In this document: positions 7,482-64,000 of the stretch, piece after piece
Layout of the letters: the number at the start of each line of letters is the position of its first letter
Position numbering within the stretch: the stretch's first letter is position 1
IMG/VR virus record: IMGVR_UViG_3300008259_000347
Span: 1-64,000 of that record
Source of the DNA: a virus
Direction: 5' to 3' (one strand)
DNA: 64,000 nt
Position numbers and translations under genes: made by a program
Notes under the pieces: model-generated
What the model saw: the letters and a program-made list of their open reading frames with translations, nothing else
What the model was told of the DNA's origin: nothing
The model's database searches: none

Positions 7482-7489
7482 TATAAATA
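7482..7489 (+). promoter_or_regulatory. T4-type late promoter box TATAAATA for gp26
   Basis: Exact match to the T4 late promoter consensus, ending 26 bases before the gp26 ATG, a suitable distance for a short leader. It lies in the divergent 58-bp gap with an oppositely oriented GATAAATA. Confidence 0.7.
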
Positions 7490-45375: not shown

Positions 45376-45385
45376 GGATTAATCA

Positions 45386-47248: not shown

Positions 47249-47252
47249 TCAA

Positions 47253-47260
47253 ACTAAATA
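47253..47260 (+). promoter_or_regulatory. Candidate late promoter box ACTAAATA
   Basis: ACTAAATA, continuing into TATAAA, ends 22 bases before ATG 47283, in a 34-bp gap. Confidence 0.5.
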
Positions 47261-47282
47261 TATAAAGTTAAGGGGTAATTAG

Positions 47283-48755
47283 ATGCCATACAGCATTGAT
47301 AGATATAATGGTACAACACTAACAGTTATAGAAGATGGTACAATCGATACCACACTGGATATTAAACTTATTGGTAAAAACTATGCTGGTTACGGCGAAG
47401 TTCAAAATGAGAATTTTTTACACATTCTCGAAAGCTTTTCAGGAACAGCCGCTCCACCAAAGCCAATAAGCGGGCAAATTTGGTACGATAGTGGGCTTAA
47501 AAAGCTAAAATTTTATGACGCTACTAAATGGAGAACAACAGGTGGAGCCGAAGTAGCTCCTGCTGCTCCTACAGGACTGACCACAGGCGATTTTTGGTGG
47601 GACAGCTCCAATGATCAATTATACGCTAATAAGAATGGTACTGAATTTGTTCTTATTGGACCACAAGGTGTAGCAGGTTTTGGAACTACTGCTATGCGTT
47701 CCAGAGCTATCAGAGATGTAGGAAATGTTAACCATGCGGTGATTGAAGCTATTTCCGATGGTGATGTTGTTTTTGTAATTAATTCCGACTCTGAATTTGA
47801 CTTAGATACTGTTTTCCATACTGATTTAGCAGCACTAGGATTCACAAAAATTAAAACTGGTGTTACTATGGCCAATACTGGCACATCTGGAGTAACATCA
47901 AGTGCTCATAGATTCTGGGGAACTGCTAGTAACAGTATTAAATTAAATGGTTTCTCTGATACTGAATTTGTAAAAGCAGCATCTGCGCAATTTACAGCAG
48001 TGGCCAAGTTTGTAGATCCTGGTCTTACTGTTGGTGCTAGTGACGATTTAGGAATTTTTATAGACGTCGATGGCGTTACACCAATTATTAAAAATAACCT
48101 AGCAGATACAATAAAATTTCAAACTACTAGTGCTGGTACTAAAACTCCATTGACTCTAGTAGGCAATGATATTTTACCAGGATCTAATATCCAATCAAAT
48201 ATTGGATCTACTACTTTAAAATATAACACTGTTCATGCTTTGACTTTTGACGGAGTTGCTACACAAGCAAATACATTAAATGTTGGAGGAACATATCGTT
48301 CATCTTCTACAGCGGCTAGTGTAAACACTATCGCAGCTAGAGATAATGCTGGAGATATATATGCTGTTCTTTTCCAAGGTACAGCTACAAGAGCAAGATT
48401 CGCTGACTTAGCAGAAAAATATCTTGCTGATGCCGAGTATGATGTGGGTACTGTAGTTGTAATAGGTGGAGAGAAAGAAGTAACAGCTTGCTCTCCAGGA
48501 CAATTAGCGATTGGAGCAGTTAGTGCGAATCCAGCTCACTTGATGAACAGCGAATTACAAGGCGGTACAGCAATTGCACTAAAGGGTCGTGTACCAGTTA
48601 AAGTTAATGGATCTGTAATTAAAGGACAAAAATTAGTTGCTGGTCCAAACGGATCTGCACAAGCAGCTTTTGGAAACAATGTCGATGTATTTGCTGTGGC
48701 ATTAGAAACAAATGAAGATGTTGGTGTAAAATTAGTAGAATGCCTAGTGCTGTAA
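47283..48755 (+). CDS. Tail fibre-like protein (paralogue 3) with autoprocessing-like C-terminus
   Basis: 490 residues. N-terminal module KLIGKNYAGYGEVQNENFLHILESF then GQIWYDS matches the two upstream genes. C-terminal 110 residues (from DLAEKYLADAEYDVGTVVVI, with ALKGRVPVKVNGSVIKGQKL) resemble the Peptidase_G2/intramolecular chaperone-type end found on phage fibres. Such ends assist trimer folding and may be cleaved off. That family match is from recognition of the AEKY and GRVPVKV pattern; the catalytic residues were not traced. Confidence 0.6.
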   Translation: MPYSIDRYNGTTLTVIEDGTIDTTLDIKLIGKNYAGYGEVQNENFLHILESFSGTAAPPKPISGQIWYDSGLKKLKFYDATKWRTTGGAEVAPAAPTGLTTGDFWWDSSNDQLYANKNGTEFVLIGPQGVAGFGTTAMRSRAIRDVGNVNHAVIEAISDGDVVFVINSDSEFDLDTVFHTDLAALGFTKIKTGVTMANTGTSGVTSSAHRFWGTASNSIKLNGFSDTEFVKAASAQFTAVAKFVDPGLTVGASDDLGIFIDVDGVTPIIKNNLADTIKFQTTSAGTKTPLTLVGNDILPGSNIQSNIGSTTLKYNTVHALTFDGVATQANTLNVGGTYRSSSTAASVNTIAARDNAGDIYAVLFQGTATRARFADLAEKYLADAEYDVGTVVVIGGEKEVTACSPGQLAIGAVSANPAHLMNSELQGGTAIALKGRVPVKVNGSVIKGQKLVAGPNGSAQAAFGNNVDVFAVALETNEDVGVKLVECLVL

Positions 48756-50607: not shown

Positions 50608-50958
50608 GTGAATCAAAATATTGAAAAAGCTTTTGAAATAAGCAATCTTATGGCCACAGTGGCTAACCAAAAACGTGTACTAAAAGAAGAATACGAGCAG
50701 TCTCTTATGTATTTTGAGAATGGAGGCTCTTTTCGAGCAGATCACACTACCATATCCTACATCAAAACTTTAAAAGAATTAACAAATGAAAAACGTTTGG
50801 TAATAATTGATGCTAATTTCACACCAATTGAAATTTTAGATATTGATAAATTTTTAGCTTCTTTATTAGACAAGCACTTTCAAGCGATTAATGCTTATTT
50901 TTCTAAATTCAATGTTTTGAAAAAAAGTAGAAATATTAAAAATATATTAGATTTATGA
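50608..50958 (+). CDS. Hypothetical protein opening the accessory operon
   Basis: 116 residues. GGAG at 50599-50602 suggests the GTG at 50608 rather than 50602 as start. Helical, charged, with ADHTTISYIKTLKELTNEKR then VIIDANFTPIEILDIDKFLA. No family recognised. It overlaps the next gene by 4 bases (ATGA), so it is coupled to the glycosyltransferase genes and belongs functionally with the operon rather than the fibres. Confidence 0.55.
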   Translation: MNQNIEKAFEISNLMATVANQKRVLKEEYEQSLMYFENGGSFRADHTTISYIKTLKELTNEKRLVIIDANFTPIEILDIDKFLASLLDKHFQAINAYFSKFNVLKKSRNIKNILDL

Positions 50959-51788
50959 ATAAAGGCATATTGCTCTACGCACTAAATTCAGAAATGGATT
51001 ATGTTAAGTTAGCCGTAAAGTTAACTGAGCGCATTAAGCATTATTTAAATTTGCCAGTCACTATCATAACTGACAGTGAAGATTATCTACGTAAAAATTA
51101 TAATATAGAATTATTTGATAGTATTATCAAAAGAAAAGACACGACAGATCAAACAAAAAAATTCAGTGACGGGCATGGATTTTCTGAAAGGTATGTTTGG
51201 AAAAATTCTAATAGAGCTAGTGCATTTGAAATTACACCCTACGAACAGACACTAGTGCTAGATGTGGATTATGTTATAAATTCTGATTTTTTACTTAGTG
51301 TATTCAATCAAAATAAAGAATTTTTATGTTTTAGAAAATCATGTGATCTAGCAGGATGGCGAAATACAGCAGAATTTGAATATCTAAATCAGTACTCTAT
51401 TCCATTTTATTGGGCCACAGTGTTTTATTTTACTAAAACAAAATCAAATGAGATATTTTTTAACTTAGTAGAATACATTAGAGATCATTGGGAATACTAT
51501 AGATTAATATATCAAATTAACGATAAAAAATTTAGAAATGATTACGCATTTAGCATCGCTATTCACATACTCAACGGAACTGATGTTGATTTATTTGATA
51601 GTACAATAGCAGGAAAAATGTTTTATACTTTGGATAAAGACGTTTTATTAAAAATTAATAAAAGTTCTATGACATTTCTTGTGGAAAAAGAAAAAGTTTT
51701 AGGGGAGTTTACTGGCCTAAGAACTACAGATTTAGATGTACATGTAATGAATAAATTTAGTTTATTAAGGGCATACGATGAGCAATAG
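50955..51788 (+). CDS. GT-A-like putative glycosyltransferase (pair 1, copy 1)
   Basis: 277 residues. Starts with ILLYALNSEMDYVKLAVKLTERI and has ITDSEDYL, then ASAFEITPYEQTLVLDVDYVI, where DVD (about 97-99) fits a GT-A DxD metal/sugar-nucleotide motif at the end of a hydrophobic strand. Ends in LDVHVMNKFSLLRAY. Paralogous to the next gene in layout. GT8-like relationship is possible. Acceptor and donor are unknown. No signal peptide, so cytoplasmic. Confidence 0.55.
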   Translation: MNKGILLYALNSEMDYVKLAVKLTERIKHYLNLPVTIITDSEDYLRKNYNIELFDSIIKRKDTTDQTKKFSDGHGFSERYVWKNSNRASAFEITPYEQTLVLDVDYVINSDFLLSVFNQNKEFLCFRKSCDLAGWRNTAEFEYLNQYSIPFYWATVFYFTKTKSNEIFFNLVEYIRDHWEYYRLIYQINDKKFRNDYAFSIAIHILNGTDVDLFDSTIAGKMFYTLDKDVLLKINKSSMTFLVEKEKVLGEFTGLRTTDLDVHVMNKFSLLRAYDEQ

Positions 51789-52611
51789 AGGTCATTTATT
51801 TTTTGCTCAAAACACAGGTACAGATTATGTTACTCAGGCCTATGCTGCTGCGCTGACTATAAAAAAATTTAATAGATATAATAAAACATGCTTGGTCACA
51901 AACGACGTGGTTCCGTTAAAGTATCTAAAAGCTTTTGACAGAATAGAAACAGTTCCTTGGACTGACGATGCTGTTAATAGTGATTGGAAAATTGAAAATC
52001 GTTGGAAATTAATCCATGTCAGCCCGTTTGATGAAACATTGGTTTATGATAGCGATATGCTATTATTGTCCTCGAACGATCATTGGTGGAATTATTTAGA
52101 AAACAAAAGTGTAGCATTAACTAGCAAAGTTAAAACTTATAAAAATTCTCCTGTTTTTGATTATGTTTATAGAAAAACTTTCGTAGATAATAATCTACCT
52201 AACGTTTATTTTGGATTACATTATTTTAAGAAAGATAAACAATCTCTTGAATTTTATAAATGGTTAGAAATTATTGTTAAAAATTGGAGAAAGTATTACA
52301 ACGAATACACAATAAACAATACTCAAAAATTTTGTAGTATGGATGTAAGTTCAGCTATAGCAACACTGTTAATGGATTCAGAAGATGAGTTTTCAAAATT
52401 TAATCCTTTGTCATTTACTCATATGAAACCAGCTATACAAGGATGGTATCCGTCGCCAGCGACATGGCAGTCGGCAGTTAGTGTTCAATTTAATGAACAA
52501 CTGGAACTCAGAATAAACAATATACTACAACAAGGTGTCTTTCATTACACAGAAGATAATTTTTTAACAGATAATTTATTAAAGAAAATAGAGGTTAGTT
52601 GTGGGATTTAA
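51778..52611 (+). CDS. GT-A-like putative glycosyltransferase (pair 1, copy 2)
   Basis: 277 residues, same length and layout as its upstream neighbour: FFAQNTGTDYVTQAYAAALTI, LVTNDVV, then PFDETLVYDSDMLLLSS with DSD (about 91-93) as the DxD candidate. C-terminal half contains FTHMKPAIQGWYPSP. It overlaps neighbours by 11 bases on both sides. Local similarity to copy 1 is low outside the motifs, so the pair is old. Substrate unknown. Confidence 0.55.
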   Translation: MSNRGHLFFAQNTGTDYVTQAYAAALTIKKFNRYNKTCLVTNDVVPLKYLKAFDRIETVPWTDDAVNSDWKIENRWKLIHVSPFDETLVYDSDMLLLSSNDHWWNYLENKSVALTSKVKTYKNSPVFDYVYRKTFVDNNLPNVYFGLHYFKKDKQSLEFYKWLEIIVKNWRKYYNEYTINNTQKFCSMDVSSAIATLLMDSEDEFSKFNPLSFTHMKPAIQGWYPSPATWQSAVSVQFNEQLELRINNILQQGVFHYTEDNFLTDNLLKKIEVSCGI

Positions 52612-53104
52612 ATTTTTTGTTTATTACGATGACGACGGCAATATAACTGCTATCACTAATGAAAAGAGACCCTCTGGCAATTTTTTAGAAACAGACGAAT
52701 CTGAAATTTTGGACTTTTTAAATGGATCAAAAGATTTTACTAAATTTAAAATCACTAGTTTATCCTCCGGCACAAAGCAGATAAAATTAGCAACAGAATC
52801 GACTTCATTAATTTATAAAGATTTTTACATAGTAGGAAAAGCAAATGATACAGAGCAAGTTTTAATTTTTCATGATGTGTTTAATTCTTGTTGGAATATC
52901 TCGTTAGACAGTCAAGCAAAACAAGTAGAATTCAGCCTGTATATTTGTAAGAAAGAAAATTTAAATTTTTTAATTAGAGAAATAAAAGTACCAGCTAGAA
53001 AAAATGTATCAATTCCATTTGATCTAGATACAGAAAAAAATATTTCAAATTTAATGATATTAGTTAAAAAAATTCATCAATCATACGGAATAAAATATGT
53101 CTAA
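52601..53104 (+). CDS. Hypothetical protein of the accessory operon
   Basis: 167 residues, GTG start at 52601 with GAGG 8 bases upstream. Beta-rich: FKFFVYYDDDGNITAITNE, LIYKDFYIVGKAN, WNISLDSQAKQVEFSLYIC. No catalytic motif recognised. It overlaps both flanking glycosyltransferase candidates by 8-11 bases. It could be a glycan-binding or scaffold partner; this is speculation from context. Confidence 0.5.
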   Translation: MGFKFFVYYDDDGNITAITNEKRPSGNFLETDESEILDFLNGSKDFTKFKITSLSSGTKQIKLATESTSLIYKDFYIVGKANDTEQVLIFHDVFNSCWNISLDSQAKQVEFSLYICKKENLNFLIREIKVPARKNVSIPFDLDTEKNISNLMILVKKIHQSYGIKYV

Positions 53105-54014
53105 AATTAAAGTTGCTGAGTGCGATGTTGTATATCTAAGTTACGACGAGCCTAACGCTGAACAAAATTATGCGGATCTACTGACTAAAATTCCTTGGGC
53201 TAAACGTATTCATGGAGTGGACGGCAGTGACAGCGCACACAAAGCCTGCGCACGGATAGCAGAAACAGAAAGAGTAGTGATTATCGACGGTGATAATATT
53301 GTCAGACCTGAATTAATTCAACAAGAAGTAGAATTTTACAACGACTCTGATATGAATTGTGTAATCAGCTGGGGAGCAAGAAATGTTATCAATGGTCTGA
53401 TTTACGGAAACGGTGGTGTTAAATGTTGGCCAACAGAATTGATATTAAACATGCGAACACATGAAAATGCCGAATCAGATAATGCTAAAACACAAGTAGA
53501 CTTTTGTTGGGACATTAATTATGTACAAATGGATAAGTGTATGAGTGATGTTTACAATAATGGCAGTGCTCAACAAGCATGGAGAGCAGGGTTTAGGGAA
53601 GGTGTTAAAATGAGTTTGTTAGAAGGATCCAAACCTACAAAAGATAAACTTTTTAATAAACAAGTTCATTGGAAAAATTTACATCGACTATTAATATGGA
53701 TGCACGTAGGCATGGATATCCAAAATGGCGACTGGGCAATTTACGGAGCCCGACAAGGCTGCTATATGACTAATTGTACTGACTGGGATTATCTAAATGT
53801 TAGAGACTTCAAATGGCTGAACACTTTCTGGGAAGAAAAAGAAAGTAAAATATCTACTGATATGTTGAAGTATGAAATAATGGGGATAGGCGAAACATTA
53901 GAACATGAATTAGGTATTAGTATTGATTTGCCATTTAATAACAATCAAAGTATCTTATTTAAAACACTGTATACAAATCCTCCAAGAATGAAAAATAATA
54001 CGGTGATTTCATAA
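53097..54014 (+). CDS. GT-A-like putative glycosyltransferase (pair 2, copy 1)
   Basis: 305 residues. N-terminal DVVYLSYDEPNAEQNYADLL, IPWAKRIHGVDG, then AETERVVIIDGDNIVRPE with DGD as the DxD candidate (about 62-64), and NVINGLIYGNGGVKCWPTE. The FxxF/Y-NxLxxxxPWAKRxxGV pattern recurs in the next gene. Family 2-like GT-A fold is a fair inference. C-terminal 100 residues are extra compared with copy 2. Stop shared with the next ATG. Confidence 0.55.
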   Translation: MSKIKVAECDVVYLSYDEPNAEQNYADLLTKIPWAKRIHGVDGSDSAHKACARIAETERVVIIDGDNIVRPELIQQEVEFYNDSDMNCVISWGARNVINGLIYGNGGVKCWPTELILNMRTHENAESDNAKTQVDFCWDINYVQMDKCMSDVYNNGSAQQAWRAGFREGVKMSLLEGSKPTKDKLFNKQVHWKNLHRLLIWMHVGMDIQNGDWAIYGARQGCYMTNCTDWDYLNVRDFKWLNTFWEEKESKISTDMLKYEIMGIGETLEHELGISIDLPFNNNQSILFKTLYTNPPRMKNNTVIS

Positions 54015-54700
54015 TGTACGATATTGTTTTTATAAGTTATAATGAACTAAATGCTGAAAAAAACTGGCAAAATTTAACTGCTAGATTTTCTTGGGCCAAG
54101 CGTGTGTCAGGAGTTACTGGCATTCACAGAGCACACATAGCTGCTGCCAGCAAATGTTTTACAAATATGTTTTGGGTAGTAGACGGTGATGCTGAAATAT
54201 TAGAAACATTTGATTTTAGTTATACTACAAAAGAAACAAAATTTGTTCACGTATGGCGCAGTCTTAATCCTATCAATGATTTAGAATACGGTTTTGGAGG
54301 AGTTAAGCTGTTACCGAGATTAGCTACGCTGAATATGGACACATCTAAACCGGATATGACAACTAGTATAAGTCCTCACTTTAAACCTATGCCCGAAGTC
54401 AGCAATGTTACAGCATTTAATACGGATCCTTTCAGTACTTGGCGTAGTGCCTTTAGGGAATGTTCTAAGTTATCCAGTAAGGTTATAGATAGACAAAAAA
54501 ATGATGAAACAGAAAATCGTTTATTAACTTGGAAAATAAAAGGAGCAGATCGTCCATTCGGAGAATATGCATTGAAAGGTGCTGCTGATGGAGAGCAGTT
54601 CGGAGTGTTGAACAAGGGCAATATAGAGGAACTAAAGAAAATTAATGATTTTGCTTGGTTAAGAGAACAATTTGAAAGGAGTTACAATGGAAGAAGTTGA
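54014..54700 (+). CDS. GT-A-like putative glycosyltransferase (pair 2, copy 2)
   Basis: 228 residues; shortened relative of the preceding protein: IVFISYNELNAEKNWQNLT, FSWAKRVSGVTG, FWVVDGDAEIL (DGD), then NPINDLEYGFGGVKLLPRL. Conserved INDLxYGxGGVKxLP block is shared. C-terminal half carries FSTWRSAFRECSK and GADGEQFGVLN-like segments that parallel copy 1 (AWRAGFRE, YGARQG). It ends within 14 bases of the next gene's ATG. Confidence 0.55.
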   Translation: MYDIVFISYNELNAEKNWQNLTARFSWAKRVSGVTGIHRAHIAAASKCFTNMFWVVDGDAEILETFDFSYTTKETKFVHVWRSLNPINDLEYGFGGVKLLPRLATLNMDTSKPDMTTSISPHFKPMPEVSNVTAFNTDPFSTWRSAFRECSKLSSKVIDRQKNDETENRLLTWKIKGADRPFGEYALKGAADGEQFGVLNKGNIEELKKINDFAWLREQFERSYNGRS

Positions 54701-55538
54701 TAAAAGTGCCATATCATGGCTACATGGACTACAAGAATTTTTTAAGTTCCAAGGAGACGAAACGTCCAGTAATTATGTGGATTTTATTTTAAAATTACTG
54801 TATGCTAATAATCCTATGATTACAATTACTGAAGAAGCAGATATTGTTGAATTTATCAGCATGTTAAGAAAATTTACACACAACAGTATTTTTACTGCTT
54901 TCCATAAGTATTATAGGGAAGAACATAATCCAAAATATTTACAAGATGCTTTTAGTCGTGGACAAGTACAAAGTAAAATTTGGCTAGCAGAGGAATTACA
55001 GAAAATACGAGTCGAACATAAAAATGTATTAATTCTAGCAGGCTGGTACGGACAACTATTACAGTATTTTCGAGAATTAAAATTTGGTAAAGTGCGTGTA
55101 GTAGATATGGATAGAGAAGCCTGTTTAATTAGTGACGATATTTTTAATTTAAATTTTATTGAAAATTATAGAGTAAAAGCTATACGTTCTGATATAAATG
55201 ATTTAGTAATACACAAGTCTGGATATGTTCTGAATGTAGAAAACTTTAAAAATCCAGATGCTAAGATTTTCAGCGAAACATTTATGCCTGATCTTATTGT
55301 TAATACGTCTGCTGAACACATGGACGAAAGATGGTATGATGCTATTAGATTTAAAGAATTTGAAAATAAACCTATTGTTGTAATTCAGAGTAATAACTTG
55401 TTTGATGTAGAAGAACACATTAACTGTGTTCATAGTATAGAACATATAAAGAAAAAATATCCTATGAGTGAAATTCTGTACGAGGGAGAATTACAACTTA
55501 GGGGTTACAAACGAGTAATGATCATCGGAAAACCATGA
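54687..55538 (+). CDS. Methyltransferase-like protein (SAM Rossmann)
   Basis: 283 residues from ATG 54687, which has AAGGAG 6 bases upstream (the in-frame TTG at 54672 is rejected). Strand HKNVLILAGWYGQLLQYF (about 115-132) with KVRVVDMDREACLISD next fits a Rossmann motif I/II of class I methyltransferases, and PDLIVNTSAEHMD is at the motif IV position. N-terminal 100 residues are helical. The target is unknown. Not an N6-adenine or C5-cytosine DNA methylase by motif (no DPPY or PC). Confidence 0.5.
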   Translation: MEEVDKSAISWLHGLQEFFKFQGDETSSNYVDFILKLLYANNPMITITEEADIVEFISMLRKFTHNSIFTAFHKYYREEHNPKYLQDAFSRGQVQSKIWLAEELQKIRVEHKNVLILAGWYGQLLQYFRELKFGKVRVVDMDREACLISDDIFNLNFIENYRVKAIRSDINDLVIHKSGYVLNVENFKNPDAKIFSETFMPDLIVNTSAEHMDERWYDAIRFKEFENKPIVVIQSNNLFDVEEHINCVHSIEHIKKKYPMSEILYEGELQLRGYKRVMIIGKP

Positions 55539-55762
55539 TTGATTTAGACCAATACGATTTAAGGACGCTACAAAAAGAGTGTGCTCGTGCGGTTGCTACA
55601 ATGGAAGCAACTAACAATAACATATATAAGTTTAATCAACAAGCACATCATGATAGTCAAAATTGGTATAAAGCAGTGATTGAGTGGTATGTTGAACAAT
55701 ATGGAGATTTGCCAAGTCGTGTTGGTCCAGGTGTAGATATTAAATTTGTGACGGACTACTGA
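55535..55762 (+). CDS. Small hypothetical protein of the accessory operon
   Basis: 75 residues, start ATG overlaps the preceding stop by 4 (ATGA) and its stop is joined with the next ATG (TGATG). Helical N-terminus (LRTLQKECARAVATMEATNN) with several aromatic residues after it. No family seen. Tight overlaps support translation. Confidence 0.5.
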   Translation: MIDLDQYDLRTLQKECARAVATMEATNNNIYKFNQQAHHDSQNWYKAVIEWYVEQYGDLPSRVGPGVDIKFVTDY

Positions 55763-56349
55763 TGAAAGAACTTGATTTTTATTCTGAAAATTTTTGGTTT
55801 TCACAAATAGATCAACACGGAGATGTAGACAACTATGGTGAAGATTATTATGCTTATAAGTTTTTCAAAAATGTAATTTTGAATCTAACAGATATTCCTA
55901 ATAATGGGCATATTGTTGTGATGGGAACCCACAACTGTGTAAGTTTTAATTTACTTTGCGAACACTTTGGAAAAGATAGGTGTATAGGATATGATATAGC
56001 AAATCCTACAAATCATCCTTGCGTGAAAGTAAAAAATATTTTGGAAGTAACTGACAATATTCCTATAAGTTTTGTACATAATGATATAGGTAATTACGGT
56101 TTTACTCCTACTGCAAAATTTTATGCTCAACAATGGGCAGCAAATAATGTAGTAGAAGGCGGTTATTTTTTGGGTAGAAATAATTTGAATAGAGCAAAAC
56201 TACCTATTGAGCAGTATATGGAAAGATTAGGTTTTCTTAATACAAATATGTTAGCATTAACAGGCGTTTTTAATTTATCTAATATTGCTTACAGAGAATT
56301 AGAAGGACATATGATATCAAAAAAAGTAGGCATAAGACATTATGTATAG
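55762..56349 (+). CDS. Methyltransferase-like protein 2
   Basis: 195 residues. NGHIVVMGTHNCVSFNLLCEHF followed by CIGYDIANPTNH is a loose motif I and acidic motif II of a Rossmann methyltransferase, and ISFVHNDIGNYG a motif IV-like strand. Glycine content in motif I is low, so SAM binding is not proven; a pseudoenzyme or other Rossmann protein is possible. It precedes the first radical SAM gene with an 8-base overlap. Confidence 0.4.
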   Translation: MKELDFYSENFWFSQIDQHGDVDNYGEDYYAYKFFKNVILNLTDIPNNGHIVVMGTHNCVSFNLLCEHFGKDRCIGYDIANPTNHPCVKVKNILEVTDNIPISFVHNDIGNYGFTPTAKFYAQQWAANNVVEGGYFLGRNNLNRAKLPIEQYMERLGFLNTNMLALTGVFNLSNIAYRELEGHMISKKVGIRHYV

Positions 56350-56821
56350 ATATAATGAAATACAAACTGTTCATTTAGAAATGACAGATAACTGTAATGC
56401 TGCCTGTCCTATGTGCGCAAGAAACATCAATGGTGGAGAAGATAATCCGCAGTTACCAGGTACTGAACTAAGTTTAGAGGATTGTAAAACTATATTTGAT
56501 CCTAATTTTATAGCACAATTGAAACGTATGTATATGTGTGGAAATTATGGAGATCCTATTGCTGCTCGAGATACTCTAGAAGTTTTTGATTATTTTAGAC
56601 AACATAATTCTAAAATGAGTCTTAACATGTATACTAACGGTAGTGCTAAAAAACCAGATTGGTGGAAAAATTTAGCAAAGGTTTTAGGAAAAAATAGTTA
56701 TGTAGTTTTTAGCATAGACGGGTTAGAAGACACAAATCATTTGTATAGACAAAATACTGTATGGTCCAAGATAATGGAAAATGCTCAAGCATTTATCAAA
56801 ATACTGTATGGTCCAAGATAA
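56342..56821 (+). CDS. Radical SAM protein A, N-terminal part (frame broken by duplication)
   Basis: VHLEMTDNCNAACPMCARN gives the CxxxCxxC cluster ligands (Cys18, 22, 25) of radical SAM enzymes; CGNYGDPIAARD and MYTNGSAKKPDWW follow. The frame ends at 56819 because a perfect 47-bp tandem duplication (56750-56843) was inserted. With one copy the gene 56342-57561 is 391 codons and continues as DTNHLYRQNTVWSKIMENAQAFIDAGG..., matching paralogue B. This part carries the catalytic half. Confidence 0.7.
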   Translation: MYRYNEIQTVHLEMTDNCNAACPMCARNINGGEDNPQLPGTELSLEDCKTIFDPNFIAQLKRMYMCGNYGDPIAARDTLEVFDYFRQHNSKMSLNMYTNGSAKKPDWWKNLAKVLGKNSYVVFSIDGLEDTNHLYRQNTVWSKIMENAQAFIKILYGPR

Positions 56822-56843
56822 TGGAAAATGCTCAAGCATTTAT
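56750..56843. repeat. Perfect 47-bp tandem duplication in radical SAM gene A
   Basis: Copies 56750-56796 and 56797-56843 are identical; 47 leaves a remainder of 2 on division by three, so the frame breaks. Comparison with the paralogous gene downstream (DTNHLYRQNT versus ETNHIYRVNT) shows the single-copy form is ancestral. Confidence 0.95.
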
Positions 56844-57561
56844 TGATGCCGGCGGCAATGCTCGATGGGATTATATCGTATTCGCACATAACGAACATCA
56901 GGTAGAACAAGCAGAAGAATTAAGTAAAATCATGGGGTTTGAAAGATTTCAATATAAAAAAAGTGCGAGATTTTTCAGTAACGCTAGTGGAACTACCAAA
57001 GAAATACACCAAGCAGCCAATCGCAAAGGCATGGCTACTACGCTATTACAGTCTCCAACAAATACAAAATACAGAAATAATAGTTTACAAGAATTGAGTA
57101 AAATAGCCAGCGATGTAACCAGCGAAATAAATTTTTTGCCCAGTACTGCTAAAGATGCGTTAGAAATTCAAGGTAGACAAATGTTTAGTTTTGATCCTAA
57201 GAAAAAGAAAGAGATGGAAAAATATTGGGATTCGGTTGAAATTAAATGTAAAGTAGCAGAGGAAAAGTCTGTTTATATCAGTGCAGAGGGCATAGTTCAG
57301 CCGTGTTGTTGGACAGCTGGACAGATGTATGTGTGGTATTGGAAACCATTAGGCGGTCAAATTTGGCAAGCAATTAATGAAGTTGGTAAAGATAATCTTA
57401 ATGCTAAAAATTATAGATTAGAAGAAATAATTGATGGAAGATACTTTCAGGAAGTTGTACCTGAAAGTTGGAATAAATCAAGTTGTGCTGATGGTAAATT
57501 AGCTATCTGCGCTAAAACGTGTGGTGCTAAATATGATGCCTTCGGTGATCAATTCAAATGA
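56797..57561 (+). CDS. Radical SAM protein A, C-terminal part
   Basis: 255 codons in frame with the second copy of the duplication. Reads NARWDYIVFAHNEHQVEQAEELSKI as in paralogue B. The C-terminal region has PCCWTAGQMY and CAKTCGAKYDAF, several Cys that may hold an auxiliary Fe-S cluster (SPASM/twitch-like). It is not thought to start independently. Ends overlapping gene B by 4 bases. Confidence 0.65.
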   Translation, partial: QNTVWSKIMENAQAFIDAGGNARWDYIVFAHNEHQVEQAEELSKIMGFERFQYKKSARFFSNASGTTKEIHQAANRKGMATTLLQSPTNTKYRNNSLQELSKIASDVTSEINFLPSTAKDALEIQGRQMFSFDPKKKKEMEKYWDSVEIKCKVAEEKSVYISAEGIVQPCCWTAGQMYVWYWKPLGGQIWQAINEVGKDNLNAKNYRLEEIIDGRYFQEVVPESWNKSSCADGKLAICAKTCGAKYDAFGDQFK

Positions 57562-58625
57562 ATATAGACAGCATTAAAAAAATAGAATTAGAAATTACTA
57601 GTAATTGTAATGCTGCCTGTCCTGGTTGTGCTCGTACCCAGAACGCTGATATATTAGAATTAAACAGTTTTGGTTTAGAAGATTTGCGTAGGATGTTTCC
57701 TGCTCAAAATTATATACAGGGTAAAGAGTTTAAATTTTGTGGAGTACTAGGCGATCCTATTGCTAACAAAGAATGTTACGAAATGGTAGAATACATAGTT
57801 GCTAATAACGGGTATGTTCAGATTAGTACTAATGGTGGATTATTACCTTCTAGTTGGTGGAGTAAGTTAGGTACTCTGAGTAAAGAAACTGGATTAGTAG
57901 ATGTAAATTTTTGTGTCGATGGACATAAAGAAACTAATCACATTTATAGAGTTAATACACTGTTTAGTGTTATTGAAAAAAATATGACAGCGTATTCGCA
58001 AGCGCAAGGACAAGCATCGTGGATATATATTGTATTTGATCATAATGAACATGAGTTACAGCTCGCTCAACAACACGCAGAAAATTTAGGATTTAAATTT
58101 GCTACACGAACAGGCATGAGAAATAGCTATCATAATTGGATAGCAGAAATTAGAAAAAAAGATAAAACTAAAGAACAAGTTGTAATAACAACAACAGGTA
58201 ATAAGGAACATAGTAAAAAAGATCTAGTTCAAGATTTAGACAAGTTTATTTCGACTTACAACAGAGGAATGTTTATGATTCCGATAGTTGATAAAAAACA
58301 AGAAATCTTAAATTCAATTACATGTAAGTTAGTACACGAAGGCGAAATTTTTATAGCCAGCAATCAAACTATGTGGCCTTGTTGTTTTTTATGGGATAGT
58401 ATGTTTAAAAATAAAGAAAGTATTATAGAAAAATTAAGCGAGTATTCAGAAGGTTGGAATAGTTTACGTGATCATTCTATTGATGAAGTATTAGCACATC
58501 CTTGGTTTGATCATATATTATCCGAAAGTTGGAATCCAGCACATGCCAAACATTTTATAAGATGTATTAGGACTTGTGCCTACAATAAAGCATATCAAAA
58601 CGAAATAAATTATGTCAACAAATAA
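57558..58625 (+). CDS. Radical SAM protein B
   Basis: 355 residues, paralogue of A and unbroken. ELEITSNCNAACPGCARTQN (Cys17, 21, 24), CGVLGDPIANKECY, STNGGLLPSSWW, VNFCVDGHKETNHIYRVNT and WIYIVFDHNEHELQLAQQ align with A motif by motif. C-terminal WPCCFLWD and IRTCAYNKAY are candidate auxiliary cluster ligands. A and B look like an ancient duplication and may be a heterodimer or act on successive steps. Reaction unknown. Confidence 0.75.
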   Translation: MNIDSIKKIELEITSNCNAACPGCARTQNADILELNSFGLEDLRRMFPAQNYIQGKEFKFCGVLGDPIANKECYEMVEYIVANNGYVQISTNGGLLPSSWWSKLGTLSKETGLVDVNFCVDGHKETNHIYRVNTLFSVIEKNMTAYSQAQGQASWIYIVFDHNEHELQLAQQHAENLGFKFATRTGMRNSYHNWIAEIRKKDKTKEQVVITTTGNKEHSKKDLVQDLDKFISTYNRGMFMIPIVDKKQEILNSITCKLVHEGEIFIASNQTMWPCCFLWDSMFKNKESIIEKLSEYSEGWNSLRDHSIDEVLAHPWFDHILSESWNPAHAKHFIRCIRTCAYNKAYQNEINYVNK

Positions 58626-60018
58626 CCTACCCAGCAAAACATTTTGTCTCCTTCCATGGATACATTTAAGCACACGACCAGATGGCAGTATGAGAGTATG
58701 TTGTACAGCTAATGCTAGTAGTGTAGGTCCTACTAATGATAAACAACATGGAGGAATGGTAGGAGTATTAAAAACAGACGAAGGAAAGCCTAATAATTTA
58801 AATGTTAGTGATTTTCTAAGCAGCTGGAATAGTACCTACATGAAAAATGTAAGATTAAAAATGTTAGCGGGAGAAGAGCCTCCGAGCTGTACTAAATGCT
58901 ATAGAGAAGAAGAAGCCGGCCACAATAGTAAGCGTATGTGGGAAACAGAGTATTGGCGGCAAAGAGTAGATTTAGAACAGTTAGTAGCCGACACTTCAGA
59001 AGATGGTAGCACACCTCCTCAACTTAGTTATATTGATTTACGTTTCGGAACCAAATGTCAGTTAGCCTGTGTAATGTGTAGCCCGCATGATAGCTCTGGA
59101 TGGATTAAAGATTGGCAAGCTATATATCCTCAGATACAGAATACAAGTTTAAAGGAAACTGCACAGTGGTCAAATAAAGGCAGTATTAACGGTAGTAGTT
59201 ATAATTGGCATAAAAATAATCCTACATTTTGGAAACAATTTAATGAACAAATACCGCACATGCAGCAATTATACTTTGCTGGTGGCGAAAGTTTAATTAT
59301 CGAAGAACATTACGAAATATTAGAAGAAGCTATTAGACAAGGCCATGCTAAAAATTTAGAGTTGCGGTATAATAGTAATGGTGTAGAATGGAGAGAAGAT
59401 TTATTTAAATTATGGAAAGAATTTAAACTTGTTCGTTTTCATTATAGTGTAGATAGTATTGGAGAAATGAACAGTTATATTCGTTATCCAAGCGAATGGG
59501 AACGCACACATGAAGTGTTTCATATACTAGATAAAGGAACTCCTCCTAACACAGAGATTACAGTGGCCTGCGCTGTACAAGCATTGAATGTGTATTATTT
59601 GCCAGATTTTCTAAAATGGAAATTGACACAAAATTTTAAAAAGGTTAATATGTGGCCTTTAGGCGCAGGTGGAATAAATTATCATTTTGTATATCATCCT
59701 CCGCATCTGAATGTTAAAGTTCTTCCAAAATGGTTCAAAGAAAAATGTAGACAAAAATACGAAGAATTTTATCCCTGGTGGGAAGCTAATTGGCAAAAAG
59801 GAGTTCCTGAATCAAAGAAGGATTATGTGACATATGACATGTGGCGTGATGCTAGTTACGGAATTAATAGATTAGAAGGTATGTTACAATTTATGGAAAG
59901 TGAAGATTGGAGTGTAAGATTGCCTGAATTAAAAGAGTATATTCAGCTGATTGACAATCAGCGTGGTCTCAATTTTTCCGAGACCTTTCCTGAAATGAAG
60001 GATATTTTTAATGGGTAA
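58612..60018 (+). CDS. Twitch-domain radical SAM protein C
   Basis: 468 residues. N-terminal cysteine region FCLLPWIHLSTRPDGSMRVCC (Cys12, 30, 31) and SCTKCYREEEAG (Cys93, 96) form a twitch-type auxiliary site placed before the radical SAM core. The core has DLRFGTKCQLACVMCSP (Cys149, 153, 156), FAGGESLIIEEHYEIL and RYNSNG. Twitch domain-containing radical SAM proteins of this layout occur in marine phage contigs, without known reaction. It shares layout with D and E. Start overlaps B by 14 bases. Confidence 0.75.
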   Translation: MSTNNLPSKTFCLLPWIHLSTRPDGSMRVCCTANASSVGPTNDKQHGGMVGVLKTDEGKPNNLNVSDFLSSWNSTYMKNVRLKMLAGEEPPSCTKCYREEEAGHNSKRMWETEYWRQRVDLEQLVADTSEDGSTPPQLSYIDLRFGTKCQLACVMCSPHDSSGWIKDWQAIYPQIQNTSLKETAQWSNKGSINGSSYNWHKNNPTFWKQFNEQIPHMQQLYFAGGESLIIEEHYEILEEAIRQGHAKNLELRYNSNGVEWREDLFKLWKEFKLVRFHYSVDSIGEMNSYIRYPSEWERTHEVFHILDKGTPPNTEITVACAVQALNVYYLPDFLKWKLTQNFKKVNMWPLGAGGINYHFVYHPPHLNVKVLPKWFKEKCRQKYEEFYPWWEANWQKGVPESKKDYVTYDMWRDASYGINRLEGMLQFMESEDWSVRLPELKEYIQLIDNQRGLNFSETFPEMKDIFNG

Positions 60019-61348
60019 AAAGATATCTTGCTGGTATACACTAGGAGGCCTTAATTATAAAAATGGCTTTGTTACTTCATGCCCTCAGCAAAGTGATAAA
60101 CTTCACATAATGGAAGGTACACAAGTTATTAAACCTTCTGAAATTATCAATAGCGAAGGATTTCGTAAACACAGAATGGACATGATGTCTGGTAAATGGA
60201 GTCCTGGATGTCATCTATGTAAGAACGTCGAAGATGCTAATGCTGGCCATAGTATGCGTATGGACTATCCAGCAGACGAATCTTACTACGATGACTTGTC
60301 AGGCATGATAGATTTTAAAGGCTTAAATCATGTAGAGTTTAGATTTAGTAATGCTTGTAACATGGCTTGTTTACATTGTAGCGAAGTTTTTAGCAGTGGA
60401 TGGATGGCTAAACTTAAACACTACGAACCAGATAAAGATGACTGGAACCACAGACTTATACAATTAACTAAGACAATGCATCGTGCTGGATTTAATGATA
60501 CTCTTAGTATCGATATGAGTATCGAGGACATGCACAAAATTGTAGACGATTTAAATGAGAATTTTCCAAATCTTCAAAAGATTGATTTTACCGGTGGCGA
60601 AGTTCTTTATCAAAAACAATTTATACCTTGTTTACAAGCATTAGCTAAACATCCACATGCTGATCAACTTCATATTAGTTTTCATACTAACTTTAATGCC
60701 AAATTTAATCCAGAGGAATTGTCTAAAGCTCTTGAACCTTTCAGATATGTAACTATTATGATGAGTATTGATGCTGGTACAAACATCTATAGTTATTTTA
60801 GAACAGGCGATTGGGATGTTTTAAAGGATAATATCAAACGTTTTAAACTAGCAAATACTCATAAGAATGTAGATTTAAATGTAGTTTGTACAACTAGTGT
60901 CTATCAAATGATGGATATTGAAAATATATTCGCTAGTTTTCTAACATTAGATATTGATTGGATAGATAGTTCTATTGTATATACTCCTGACTATCTAAAT
61001 CCTGCTATCTTAATGTTTGATTACAAGGATCATGTATTACAAGATATTAAAAATACTTATGCTATGATTGACAGAGTAAAACAAGAACGCATGAATAATT
61101 TTGAAGAAAGCCAAAAGATGCGTACTTGGCGCAAGGGTAAACAGATATTTCAAGATATAGAAAGTGCGTATAGAGCACTAAAAGGCGTTGAAGACTACGT
61201 GTTGAATCACAAGCCTCAGTATAAACATTGGGAAGCTTTTATGGTATACATTAGGAAAACAGATCAACTGTGGCAACAGAATTTTAATGACCATTACGAA
61301 AATTATAAATTTGTAGATTATAAAATTCTACGAAAGGAAATGTTATGA
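60011..61348 (+). CDS. Twitch-like radical SAM protein D
   Basis: 445 residues. Cys7 and Cys24 (SCWYT, SCPQQ), CHLCKNVEDAN (Cys67, 70) then RFSNACNMACLHCSEVFSSG (Cys116, 120, 123), and TGGEVLYQKQF as the GGE motif. The segment SGWMAKLKHY follows. Same order of cysteine groups as C and E but more diverged, suggesting a different step. Overlaps C by 8 bases and the PP-loop gene by 4. Confidence 0.75.
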   Translation: MGKKISCWYTLGGLNYKNGFVTSCPQQSDKLHIMEGTQVIKPSEIINSEGFRKHRMDMMSGKWSPGCHLCKNVEDANAGHSMRMDYPADESYYDDLSGMIDFKGLNHVEFRFSNACNMACLHCSEVFSSGWMAKLKHYEPDKDDWNHRLIQLTKTMHRAGFNDTLSIDMSIEDMHKIVDDLNENFPNLQKIDFTGGEVLYQKQFIPCLQALAKHPHADQLHISFHTNFNAKFNPEELSKALEPFRYVTIMMSIDAGTNIYSYFRTGDWDVLKDNIKRFKLANTHKNVDLNVVCTTSVYQMMDIENIFASFLTLDIDWIDSSIVYTPDYLNPAILMFDYKDHVLQDIKNTYAMIDRVKQERMNNFEESQKMRTWRKGKQIFQDIESAYRALKGVEDYVLNHKPQYKHWEAFMVYIRKTDQLWQQNFNDHYENYKFVDYKILRKEML

Positions 61349-62202
61349 ATTTTAAAGACAACAACAGTATCTATGATCAATTAGATCCAAGTAGCGGAAT
61401 TCAACTATTTAGATTTAATGGATTAGATATTCCGTTCAATACTTCTTGGAGAAGGATCGGAATAAATCTAAGTGGTGGAGCAGACAGCAGTTGTTTACTA
61501 ACACTACTCTGTAATATTATTACAAGAAATAAATTGAGATGTGTAATACATGTTATTAGTCATGTTCGCTGTTATAATACTAGACCGTGGCAAGGACCAA
61601 TTGCTCAGGATGTTTATGATAAGTTTGTTAAAGATTACTATCCTAGTATACATTTTGTAAGACACACAAATTTTATACCTCCTGAATTGGAATGGGGTGC
61701 TATAGGCCCAATTACTCAAGATGAAGATGGAAGACCCCGCAGCGGCGATCAAATCTGTGTAGGCAGCTTTAATAATTATATTATTCATAAAGAAAAACTA
61801 GATGTAGTTTATAATGCCACTAGTGCCAATCCTCAAGGAAGTGATTGGATAGGTGGAATGAAAAACAGAGAAAAGCCTGCTAGTGAAGGAGTGTTAAAAG
61901 ATCTTATTATGCAAAAAGAAGGTTATACTATTTGTCATCCTTTTAGATTCGTAGATAAGTCTTATATTTTAGCTCAGTATCATTTATTTGACAAACTTGA
62001 TCTTTATAATATGACACGTAGTTGTGAAGGGGATATTAATGATCCTACAATCAAAGAAGTCGTACCTACCTTATATGAGTATGATCCAGTAGAACATACA
62101 GTGGAAACCTTGCCCAAGTGCGGACATTGTTGGTGGTGTAAAGAAAGAGATTGGGCAGAAAGTGTAGTAGAGAAAGCAGTGGAGGAACTAAAAGATGTCT
62201 GA
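61345..62202 (+). CDS. QueC-like PP-loop ATPase (N-type ATP pyrophosphatase)
   Basis: 285 residues. INLSGGADSSC (SGGADSS 43-49) is the PP-loop of adenylating enzymes. Four cysteines are spaced as in the QueC zinc site: RSCEGD (Cys227) and PKCGHCWWCKERDW (Cys259, 262, 265). QueC makes preQ0 from 7-carboxy-7-deazaguanine and ammonia. FolE, QueD and QueE are not visible here, so a different carboxylate may be activated. It sits between two radical SAM genes with 4 and 8 base overlaps. Confidence 0.7.
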   Translation: MNFKDNNSIYDQLDPSSGIQLFRFNGLDIPFNTSWRRIGINLSGGADSSCLLTLLCNIITRNKLRCVIHVISHVRCYNTRPWQGPIAQDVYDKFVKDYYPSIHFVRHTNFIPPELEWGAIGPITQDEDGRPRSGDQICVGSFNNYIIHKEKLDVVYNATSANPQGSDWIGGMKNREKPASEGVLKDLIMQKEGYTICHPFRFVDKSYILAQYHLFDKLDLYNMTRSCEGDINDPTIKEVVPTLYEYDPVEHTVETLPKCGHCWWCKERDWAESVVEKAVEELKDV

Positions 62203-63505
62203 TACATATTGTCCTATACCTTGGATATTTCAAGCAGTAAGAGCTAACGGTGACATTCGTGTTTGCTGTCAAGCCAATGTAACAAAAAATCAAGGAGTAA
62301 TAAGAAAGTTGGATGGTACGGCATATAATGCTGGTCGGGATGTGTTAGAAGAAAGCAGAAACGCAGAAATGATGAAAGCTATTCGTCTTAATATGCTTAA
62401 CGGTGTATGGAGCGAAGAGTGTGGTCGTTGTAAAAAAGAAGAAGAAAACGGATTAGTAAGTCGTAGAACTTATGAAAATCAACAGTGGAAATTTACAATA
62501 GACGAAGCAAGATCAAAAACAGCATCAGATGGAACTATTAGTGACGTTCCTGTAATTTATTATGATTTAAGATTTGGAAATTTCTGTAATTTAAAATGTC
62601 GTATGTGCGGCCCAACTGATAGTAGTGCGTGGTATGACGATTGGATTAAACTTACAGGAACAAATAAATTTAAGGATACTTCAGGCGAAGTTTCTATATT
62701 AGAAGATGGCAAAGGGTATTATTCGACAGAATTTGATTGGCCTAATTACGAACCGTTTTGGGATCAATTAGAATCAAATGTTCACAACATTCAGCACGTT
62801 TACTTTGCTGGCGGTGAACCTATGCTCATAGAACGACATTACGACTTTTTGGAAAGATGTATAGAACAAAATGTTGCTAAAAATATAATTATCGAGTATA
62901 ATACTAATATGAGCACCTTGCCTACTCGTGTGACTAAACTATGGGAAAGCTTTAAACAGGTTAGAGTTGGCGCTAGTATAGATGGTATGGGTAGTATGTT
63001 AGAGTATCAAAGATATCCTGCTAAGTGGGAAAAAACTTTGAGAAATCTAGAATATCTAGACAGTATGCCTGCTAACATTATAGCCTGGTTAGCATTTACT
63101 GTGACTGCGTATAATGTTAACCATATGGTTGATTTTATGAAATGGAAATTAGTAAAAAGCGGATTCGCCAAAATTAATAGTACTAATAGGCGTCCTATTA
63201 TTACACATCATGTTGCTCATAATCCTAAGCATTTGAACATCAGAGTATTGCCGCATGAGTATAAACAAGAATTAACAGAAAAATTTTATGATTTCTTAAA
63301 GTGGGTCGAAGAAAACAAGTTCAACAACTATGTTCAAAAACAGGCTCATGAAATTGTAAATGGAGTAGTTAGCTATATGAATAGCGAAAATTATTATGAT
63401 ACACACTGGCAAGAATTTGTAGACTATACTAAAAAGTTAGACATTATACGACATGAAAGTATTTTTTATGTAGAACCAAGATTTAGAGATTTTATTAATG
63501 ACTAA
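62195..63505 (+). CDS. Twitch-domain radical SAM protein E
   Basis: 436 residues, closest in layout to C: YCPIPWIFQAVRANGDIRVCC (Cys6, 24, 25), ECGRCKKEEENG (Cys76, 79), DLRFGNFCNLKCRMCGPTD (Cys131, 135, 138), FAGGEPMLIERHYDF, then EYNTNMSTLP. C and E also share WYxxW-type spacers and a closing helix pair. Reaction unknown; pair with the preceding and following PP-loop genes is suggestive. Start overlaps the first PP-loop gene by 8 bases. Confidence 0.75.
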   Translation: MSDTYCPIPWIFQAVRANGDIRVCCQANVTKNQGVIRKLDGTAYNAGRDVLEESRNAEMMKAIRLNMLNGVWSEECGRCKKEEENGLVSRRTYENQQWKFTIDEARSKTASDGTISDVPVIYYDLRFGNFCNLKCRMCGPTDSSAWYDDWIKLTGTNKFKDTSGEVSILEDGKGYYSTEFDWPNYEPFWDQLESNVHNIQHVYFAGGEPMLIERHYDFLERCIEQNVAKNIIIEYNTNMSTLPTRVTKLWESFKQVRVGASIDGMGSMLEYQRYPAKWEKTLRNLEYLDSMPANIIAWLAFTVTAYNVNHMVDFMKWKLVKSGFAKINSTNRRPIITHHVAHNPKHLNIRVLPHEYKQELTEKFYDFLKWVEENKFNNYVQKQAHEIVNGVVSYMNSENYYDTHWQEFVDYTKKLDIIRHESIFYVEPRFRDFIND

Positions 63506-64000
63506 GTTAGGAACTGTGGGTTTTGAAAGATATAATATCAAAACTTTTCCAGAGAATCATTATTTTATTAAATTACAAGAATGGATAGACCAAAATATTG
63601 AGGCTAATAAATTTTTCAATTATATTATAGTTAACGGTATTCCTATACATTTTGATTATAGATACAAATCTGTAGGTATATGTTTTAGTGGAGGCGCAGA
63701 CAGTACGATGTTATTGTATCTATTGGCTACAATAATAAAAAAATTTAATTTTCAGATTAAAATTTATCCTATATCGGTAACAAGATTTTATCACTTAGAC
63801 GATTTTAGTGATACATCTAGAAATAAAATTCTTGATTATTTAAAGGAAATTTTTCCTAATATAATAGAATCTACTATACAAGGATTTTTACCTTCTATAT
63901 TTGAAAAAATTTCTATTAAAAGTTTGCAATTGGATGATACTATTTCTTCTCATATAGAATATTTAATAGATAACAATGCTACTACAGATGTAGTATATTT
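63498..64000 (+). CDS. Second PP-loop ATPase, incomplete at window end
   Basis: 167 codons to the window edge without a stop. FDYRYKSVGICFSGGADSTMLL contains a PP-loop SGGADST (64-70), paralogous to 61345-62202 (SGGADSS). N-terminal part matches in layout: a short lead, then YIIVNGIPIHFDYRY like FNGLDIPFNTSW. The zinc-type CGxCWWC end, if present, is beyond the window. ATG overlaps the preceding stop by 8 bases, continuing the operon to the right. Confidence 0.65.
   Translation, partial: MTKLGTVGFERYNIKTFPENHYFIKLQEWIDQNIEANKFFNYIIVNGIPIHFDYRYKSVGICFSGGADSTMLLYLLATIIKKFNFQIKIYPISVTRFYHLDDFSDTSRNKILDYLKEIFPNIIESTIQGFLPSIFEKISIKSLQLDDTISSHIEYLIDNNATTDVVY

Follow-up and report, generated by a model that had tools for sequence, protein, structure and literature searches.

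Bases 1-64000 of a 78,208-base IMG/VR virus record (IMGVR_UViG_3300008259_000347), the 64,000-base stretch analysed here and called the window, end within an array of eight radical S-adenosylmethionine (SAM) genes and two PP-loop ATPase genes. The array spans 56342-68275 on the + strand of the record, which comes from a large, aquatic T4-like virus, with end-to-end overlaps. Its PP-loop proteins, PP1 and PP2, have the fold and the cysteine motif of QueC and have lost the canonical QueC substrate residues, and the array recurs among viruses as a pathway that probably has a sugar coat or a virus protein as its target. Radical SAM genes of marine viruses recur unexplained, and names taken from heme or molybdenum-cofactor enzymes are easily given to them in error. 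A recurrent order that includes a QueC-derived ligase is a concrete, expressible gene set, with which two questions become testable, namely what phage radical SAM arrays produce and to what extent the QueC scaffold is re-used beyond base synthesis.

An earlier, sequence-only reading of the window had described an array of five radical SAM and two PP-loop genes; the array is real but larger, with eight radical SAM genes, and it continues outside the window to genome position 68275. The order A, B, C, D, PP1, E, PP2, all overlapping and on the + strand from 56342, was found as that reading gave it, and so were the CxxxCxxC motifs of A (56393), B (57606), C (59056), D (60356) and E (62585) and the SGGADS motifs of PP1 (61471) and PP2 (63687). 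Gene A had been taken as a single open reading frame and consists here of two fragments; the 5' fragment (56342..56821) carries the radical SAM core of the SPASM-type family A/B (PF04055, 33.2 bits; CNAACPMC at 56393) and the 3' fragment (56761..57561) a C-terminal cysteine domain, SPASM/twitch-like (PF13186 SPASM, 16.5 bits, under the cut-off). Gene B (57558..58625; CNAACPGC) is a paralogue of A, and genes C (58612..60018), D (60011..61348) and E (62195..63505) are N-terminal-twitch radical SAM genes, with NF033640 scores of 418, 208 and 379 bits, respectively. PP1 (61345..62202) is assigned as a QueC-like PP-loop ATPase with a C...CxxCxxC metal-site motif from its predicted fold and profile homology. 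The second QueC-like gene, PP2, is cut by the window end (63498..64000) and is whole at genome 63498-64382 (L011:1498-2382, L011 being a stretch of this record). Beyond the window follow F (broken), a short gene resembling short-chain dehydrogenases/reductases (SDR-like), H and G, the last gene of the array. A motif check of the radical SAM core showed CxxxCxxC in all of A to H.

The array order is kept in the loci of two close relatives, L009 and L010, with PP1 88% identical; L009 is without PP2. In the present record, an exact tandem duplication of 47 bases, starting at 56750, breaks gene A in two with loss of the frame, and gene F lacks 145 bases compared with L010; gene E of L010 lacks one base compared with L009. 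Intact A and F are present in L009 and L010 and intact E in the window and L009, each lesion being confined to one of the three close contigs; the lesions may be assembly errors or real mutations. The ratio of non-synonymous to synonymous substitution (dN/dS) among the three relatives is 0.014-0.133 for the compared genes and 0.28 for PP2, all rough values, since dS is above 1 for every pair except PP2 and synonymous sites are near saturation. The low dN/dS and the order shared with L009 and L010 exclude a chance origin. An assembly artefact was considered for the array as a whole and rejected, as the same order occurs in independent contigs. Scattering of the genes in relatives had been named beforehand as an outcome that would speak against the earlier reading, and linkage was found instead.

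PP1 and PP2 are paralogues of one family, the profile of which gives a match of 4.8e-70 in this record. Among 107 homologues from the fetched loci described below, SGGADS, R75, N162-P163, R175, K205, TRSCE and CxxC..C.ER.W are nearly invariant. In the SGGxDS loop, S43, D47 and S48 are each present in 107/107 sequences and G44 and G45 in 106/107; in the zinc-type motif C...CxxCxxC, for which a metal is predicted, C227 and C259 are found in all 107 and C262 and C265 in 106. The AlphaFold2 prediction of PP1 (37 sequences) had a predicted local distance difference test (pLDDT) value of 94.9 and a predicted template modelling (pTM) score of 0.93. Its nearest solved folds in the VIA ranking were QueC 2pg3 (Z 13.5; 3.3 A over 186), QueC 3bl5 (13.4), TilS (12.9) and Cap9 (9nto; 12.1), with TilS, within 1 Z of QueC, counted as tied. 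Alignment of the PP profile by hhalign with seven QueC sequences, from E. coli and six phages, gave a probability of 95.4 (E 1.8e-8). PF06508 was matched by 17 of 37 PP members at E<=0.1 (best 9.8e-8), PP1 of the window being itself unmatched, and the QatC model by 2/37; the listed NCBIfam matches of the 37 members contained no model of a WbpG-type N-sugar amidotransferase. An hmmsearch of the PDB with the PP profile gave weak matches (best E 0.033, to an asparagine synthetase; Cap9 0.47), and the phage QueC proteins that a search of BFVD returned, several in number, had E values near 1e-6 but a TM of only about 0.45.

The family thus shares with the QueC family (PF06508, including QatC and Cap9) the SGGxDS loop, the C...CxxCxxC motif, the fold and profile homology, and with QueC itself the P-loop, a lysine at K205 and the cysteines. 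The canonical QueC substrate motifs are YxQxHxxE (Y35), VPxRN, YPDC and a tyrosine (Y189) after the first zinc cysteine (PMC13329287). All four lie outside the conserved columns of the PP family, and at the position of that tyrosine a glutamate is present in 104/107 homologues. In PP1, 31 residues separate C227 from C259, as against the C(x)8CxxCxxC spacing of canonical QueC. The PP family hence differs from the QueC family in being without the canonical substrate residues, in the longer spacing before CxxCxxC and in its position within radical SAM arrays. It does not fit the clusters as they are described in section 8 of PMC13329287, and the text of that QueC-family survey contains 0 occurrences of radical SAM.

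The radical SAM genes fall into three families, the SPASM-like A/B, the N-terminal-twitch C/D/E/H and F/G. The duplicated modules that had been suggested are borne out, since A/B, C/D/E/H, F/G and PP1/PP2 are all paralogue groups, and the combination of PP-loop partners with radical SAM proteins bearing twitch/SPASM-type cysteines is supported as well. PF04055 is above the cut-off in the first fragment of A and in C, D and E, and below it in B (23.2 against 29.5 bits), which has weak matches to many radical SAM models, all under their cut-offs; A and B are about 30% identical, with B aligning over its length. In the A/B alignment (31 members), the core cysteines and C306, C307, C374 and C378 are invariant and C287 nearly so. 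Eight radical SAM genes in the whole record match NF033640 (N-terminal twitch; cut-off 170 bits), and four of them, C, D, E and H (261 bits), exceed the curated cut-off, giving four paralogues of this family in one array; none of its members is known to us to have been tested for function. In the C/D/E/H alignment (34 members) the core cysteines are kept together with C6, C76 and C79, and C24 is nearly invariant; at positions 5-74 the profile of this family matches the BtrN twitch domain (residues 184-258, C-terminal in BtrN; E 2.6e-5). F/G (23 members) has invariant C24, C28, C31, C300, C322, C360 and C365. As judged from these alignments, the extra cysteines of all three families are fit for a putative auxiliary iron-sulfur (FeS) cluster.

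By sequence, the best PDB match of A/B is BlsE (3e-10), with BtrN also among the matches (0.005). In all three families the closest solved structures are generic; besides BlsE for A/B, those of the twitch family are 8vpo (TigE), SkfB and GDGT-MAS, and those of F/G are viperin-like enzymes and MoaA, with QueE further down. Natural fusions join A/B to a twitch protein, two twitch proteins, and a twitch protein to F/G. One twitch protein has an N-terminal domain related to a recurrent family (c36) that looks SGNH-like by eye, and no N-terminal domain of the twitch fusions has a Pfam match above the cut-off. A common N-terminal domain of about 200-230 amino acids was also seen in twitch radical SAM proteins of seven loci (L160, L167, L164, L168, L159, L154 and L169). 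A further A/B-type radical SAM is present at L010:14221-15272 as two overlapping genes, J1 and J2; this may be a natural two-gene form, because the same split occurs in L013 and L104. A separate phage radical SAM with an HMPTM-type N-terminal zinc ribbon (PF23545) was noted at L038:4973-6037, its cluster occurring in 7/109 loci.

The distribution of the genes was studied in IMG/VR relatives, of which PP patterns gave 81 and E patterns 170; 80 were kept from each, which with L011 made 161 loci, and removal of 52 that shared 31-mers with another left 109. By this ascertainment PP loci were found by PP patterns and E loci by E patterns; a scan for F/G gave at least 80 loci, which stand outside the 109-locus counts, as does locus L201. 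A PP-family gene is present in 87/109 distinct loci, and radical SAM genes number a median of 8 and a maximum of 13 per locus, with at least five in 97/109. The order thus recurs in other, uncultured aquatic phages, as had been suggested for checking: D-PP1-E is found in 21/109 loci, C-D-PP1-E in 19/109 and A-B-C-D-PP1-E-F in 13/109, many loci being cut by contig ends. In the 56 PP-fetched loci, the downstream neighbour of PP is a same-strand radical SAM gene for 50 of 65 PP genes, and 49 of these 50 overlap; the comparison rate is the 398 radical SAM genes among 1191 genes of 100 amino acids or more in the same loci. The pairing extends to a diverged set, in which PP genes of 150-240 bits have a twitch gene no more than four genes downstream in 41/48 cases and an F/G gene in 38/48.

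The earlier proposal of a single linear pathway, in which a substrate is radically transformed and then activated, is not supported as written, since B, D, F and H track PP while SDR and G do not. Among the 52 E-fetched loci, those with PP at 100 bits or more (n=27) contain B in 23, D in 22, F in 26 and H in 21, and those without it (n=25) contain B in 0, D in 0, F in 1 and H in 0; 3 of these 25 carry a diverged PP gene of 35-46 bits. The frequencies of SDR and G do not differ between E-fetched loci with and without PP. Contig ends truncate the loci compared, and along the tree of E there are no more than about four changes of PP state, with three independent pairs, of which a mean of 2.4-2.7 agree in direction and none runs the opposite way; the counts are therefore not statistically independent, and a sign test cannot reach 0.05. 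The arrangement looks like a backbone of A, C, E, G and SDR, with B-D-PP-F-H as an added cassette.

The PP profile was found in 27/27 related records, as is mostly expected, since the presence of PP or E was the ground on which 26 had been selected. The twitch model gave 6-21 matches per record in 29 records, weak cross-matches to other radical SAM proteins included. As for FeS support, Fe-S_biosyn is present in 7/27 related records and the nucleosidase PF01048 in 3/27; neither was found in this record. Three PP queries, run with E limits of 1e-5, 0.01 and 0.01, had no match in 50,697 annotated phage records, of which 303 hold a relative of E. coli QueC, and the PP family is thus distinct from ordinary phage QueC. 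A one-pattern search of cellular genomes gave ten loci, six of them titled Bdellovibrionia or Bdellovibrionales, and in 9/10, L178 being the exception, radical SAM genes of the array profiles lie beside PP. Diverged bacterial copies of the family are rare, with 7/143 genomes of the class of one cellular carrier (Bdellovibrionia) having the family. The cellular claim is based on L172 and L175, two Bdellovibrionia contigs with lengths of 710 and 937 kb; L170 and L171 are suspected to be phage contigs that were misbinned. In three loci of bacterial metagenome-assembled genomes (L173, L174 and L177), the two genes after PP look membrane-bound by eye, the second having 319-327 amino acids; a Pfam scan of the one such gene tested, in L174, gave no match. 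L174, titled 'bacterium', also has a B12-binding radical SAM, and L173 and L175 have a similar-looking gene of 505-507 amino acids.

Phage arrays of radical SAM genes have been described before (PMC2853527, PMC5332604, PMC7029224), so that the earlier statement that no characterised phage pathway has this arrangement holds for function but not for the arrays. The Campylobacter phages CP220 and CPt10 have 11-12 radical SAM genes per genome, with an exchangeable cluster in which five such genes are combined with a putative amidinotransferase (Timms et al. 2010, PMC2853527). In CP220, gp080, gp083 and gp084 match the array A/B profile at 104-115 bits, and after the radical SAM module come two genes whose annotation gives nucleoside diphosphate (NDP)-sugar transferase domains. 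It differs from the array in that no PP-loop gene is annotated in the stretch shown or matched among 11 genes scored, in its best twitch-family score of 35 bits, and in having an amidinotransferase, which the array is without (the corresponding family c21 is not in L010, L011 or L090). Vibrio phage K566 (OZ196521) likewise has three neighbouring twitch-family radical SAM genes (143-174 bits), about 21-22% identical to array C and E, but no PP match among 7 genes scored and F/G scores of at most 25 bits. The host-recognition cluster of pelagimyophages has radical SAM cassettes near tail fibres and glycosyltransferases, exchanged as cassettes; unlike in the array, no QueC-like gene is mentioned in the part of that account available (PMC7029224). 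In the cultured Pelagibacter phage Mosig, one gene is of A/B type (108 bits) and another, with a weak score, of F/G type (42 bits); genes for an aminotransferase and a carbamoyltransferase accompany them, but no PP match was found among 9 genes scored. A marine T4-like genome has 12 radical SAM genes (PMC5332604), and the available portions of its account and of that of CP220/CPt10 mention no QueC-like partner either. No paper linking a QueC-like gene to a phage radical SAM array was found in literature searches with access to open-licence PMC text; the genes described in PMC10783043, where a single QueC accompanies a single radical SAM protein and pterin genes, we take for an ordinary preQ0 set. 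Phage radical SAM arrays are hence already known, and the linked QueC-like ligase appears to be new.

We propose, at somewhat short of an even chance, a modular phage pathway in which radical SAM enzymes oxidise or rearrange a building block of a surface glycan and PP proteins activate a carboxylate with ATP. From their families, A-H would be expected to perform radical H abstraction and PP1/PP2 ATP-dependent acyl activation; the glycan substrate and the surface role are our guess. The families A/B, C/D/E/H and F/G would each abstract H at an unreactive carbon of one common scaffold, presumably a sugar or other building block of a glycan on the virion or the host envelope, which would be oxidised, decarboxylated or rearranged. 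PP1 and PP2 would adenylate a carboxylate of the scaffold and then join ammonia or an amine to it, in the manner of QueC acting on 7-carboxy-7-deazaguanine (CDG). A glycan scaffold is favoured because the array lies downstream of tail-fibre genes and beside putative glycosyltransferases and aminotransferase/oxygenase genes. On the opposite strand 3' of the array are a 449-amino-acid gene, homologues of DegT aminotransferases and of 2-oxoglutarate (2OG)-Fe(II) oxygenases, families assigned through the L010 and L009 copies, and a ThyX-like gene, named by eye. The neighbours and the similarity to BlsE and BtrN lean towards sugars, and a uridine diphosphate (UDP)-sugar dehydrogenase and a carbamoyltransferase are found near bacterial PP copies. 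The NDP-sugar transferase genes after the CP220 module and the glycosyltransferases near the pelagimyophage cassettes are hints in the same direction. It is also possible, if distinctly less than probable, that uncultured phages possess a widespread pathway of QueC-derived ligases and paralogous radical SAM arrays, a further re-use of the QueC scaffold, whose substrate is neither 7-deazaguanine nor one of the known protein conjugates, and which combinatorially diversifies a surface or virion molecule.

Several observations weigh against the glycan pathway. The array was not seen to contain a sugar-nucleotide pathway in complete form, and the three scanned relatives of the upstream putative glycosyltransferases gave no Pfam match. 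The peptide maturases SkfB, 5wgg and 8vpo (TigE) are sequence matches across all three radical SAM families. A model of the A family, for which the L010 gene was used because it is intact there, has a mean pLDDT of 80.5 and a weak C-terminal part; its nearest folds are the peptide-acting SuiB (Z 18.9) and SkfB (17.9) and the sugar-acting BlsE (17.8) and DesII (17.3), and such a mixture favours neither sugar nor peptide. By Foldseek alone, TilS and thiolases rank first for PP1, QueC leading in VIA only, and PP relatives that act on protein N-termini, Cap9 and QatC, exist. Lastly, 25/52 E-fetched loci are without PP at 100 bits or more, 22 of them without any in the stretch covered, which shows that the radical SAM genes also occur without PP.

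The SuiB/SkfB fold neighbours of A and the relation of PP to Cap9 and QatC keep protein modification open. The array might then act on tail fibres or a host surface protein, SPASM-type radical SAM enzymes altering side chains and the QueC-like ligase conjugating a small acid to the N-terminus, as is done by Cap9 and has been proposed for QatC. QueC-family protein conjugation is known (PMC13279940, PMC13329287), Cap9 (9nto) is among the top PP1 folds, the QatC model matches the two PP members noted above, and the position downstream of tail-fibre genes would suit such a target as well. Against it, there is no precursor-peptide gene between the overlapping array genes, precursors elsewhere and peptide-recognition domains not having been searched for, and the CDG-contact residues are absent from the PP family, for which reason the Cap9 reaction itself is not expected; we consider protein modification unlikely, though far from negligible. 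An array making a released small molecule (e.g. amidinated or carbamoylated), or diverting host metabolism, instead of modifying a polymer, appears improbable for the related arrays. It would agree with the carbamoyltransferase beside a bacterial copy and with the amidinotransferase-like c21 of some PP loci, which matches CP220 gp086 (24-28% identity in the eight best matches, E to 8e-31), but c21 is absent from this record and two near relatives (L011, L010, L090).

Modification of a base of the 7-deazaguanine (preQ0) type, in which radical SAM proteins replace QueE and PP proteins QueC, is suggested by the match of the F/G profile to QueE 5tgs (2.7e-6), by the homology of PP to QueC and by QueD-like genes in 8/27 related records. 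It is nonetheless very unlikely, for the canonical Y35, VPxRN, YPDC and Y189 of QueC (PMC13329287) are not kept, QueD is absent from 19/27 records including this one, and the tRNA-guanine transglycosylase (TGT) family was found in 0/27, with a control of 14/14; the records may be fragments, and a host could supply both partners. Least credible, and disfavoured, is a set of mixed host-like auxiliary metabolic genes (heme, molybdenum-cofactor and tungsten-cofactor maturases) gathered by chance. Weak matches to AhbD, MoaA and tungsten-cofactor models and the frequent viral 'ahbD' calls in the Baltic (PMC9301287) would be in its favour, but the matches are far under cut-off, e.g. 23.4 against 500 bits for A with AhbD, and same-family neighbourhoods recur across the 109 distinct loci. 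Because A and B match AhbD only far under the cut-off, the 261 Baltic calls may themselves include array radical SAM families.

The record is T4-like, with baseplate genes and a tail-fibre stretch (matches in 43243-48755). The portal protein is closest to that of Sinorhizobium phage Phosso (53% identity), and Agrobacterium phage Atu_ph07 and Serratia phage BF, with records of 357-490 kb, are among the ten best portal matches. The array begins about 7.6 kb past the tail-fibre stretch, after a run of putative glycosyltransferases. In this run of overlapping genes (50955-54700), four look like GT-A glycosyltransferases by eye; the labels GT1-4, MT1, SDR-like, ThyX, SGNH-like and membrane-bound were all given by eye, without a family match. 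The GT4-like (54014-54700) and MT1-like (54672-55538) genes, both on the + strand, are array companions in relatives, where the MT1 family occurs in 71 and the GT3/4 family in 44 of the 109 loci; the relatives of these two genes gave no Pfam match. A small + strand gene overlapping A (55762..56349) is methyltransferase-like by eye and without a family match.

Elsewhere in the window, the octamer TATAAATA, which we take to be the T4 late promoter core, occurs a single time over both strands, at 7482; in 100 shuffles at least one copy was present in every one (mean 11.4, sd 3.2), an apparent strong depletion. Two very long consecutive open reading frames at 24271-39571, of 2384 and 2735 amino acids, follow the baseplate wedge gene. 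At 10292-10428 on the - strand lies a full-length Polynucleobacter-1 RNA (RF01718), with 116.7 bits against a gathering score of 37.

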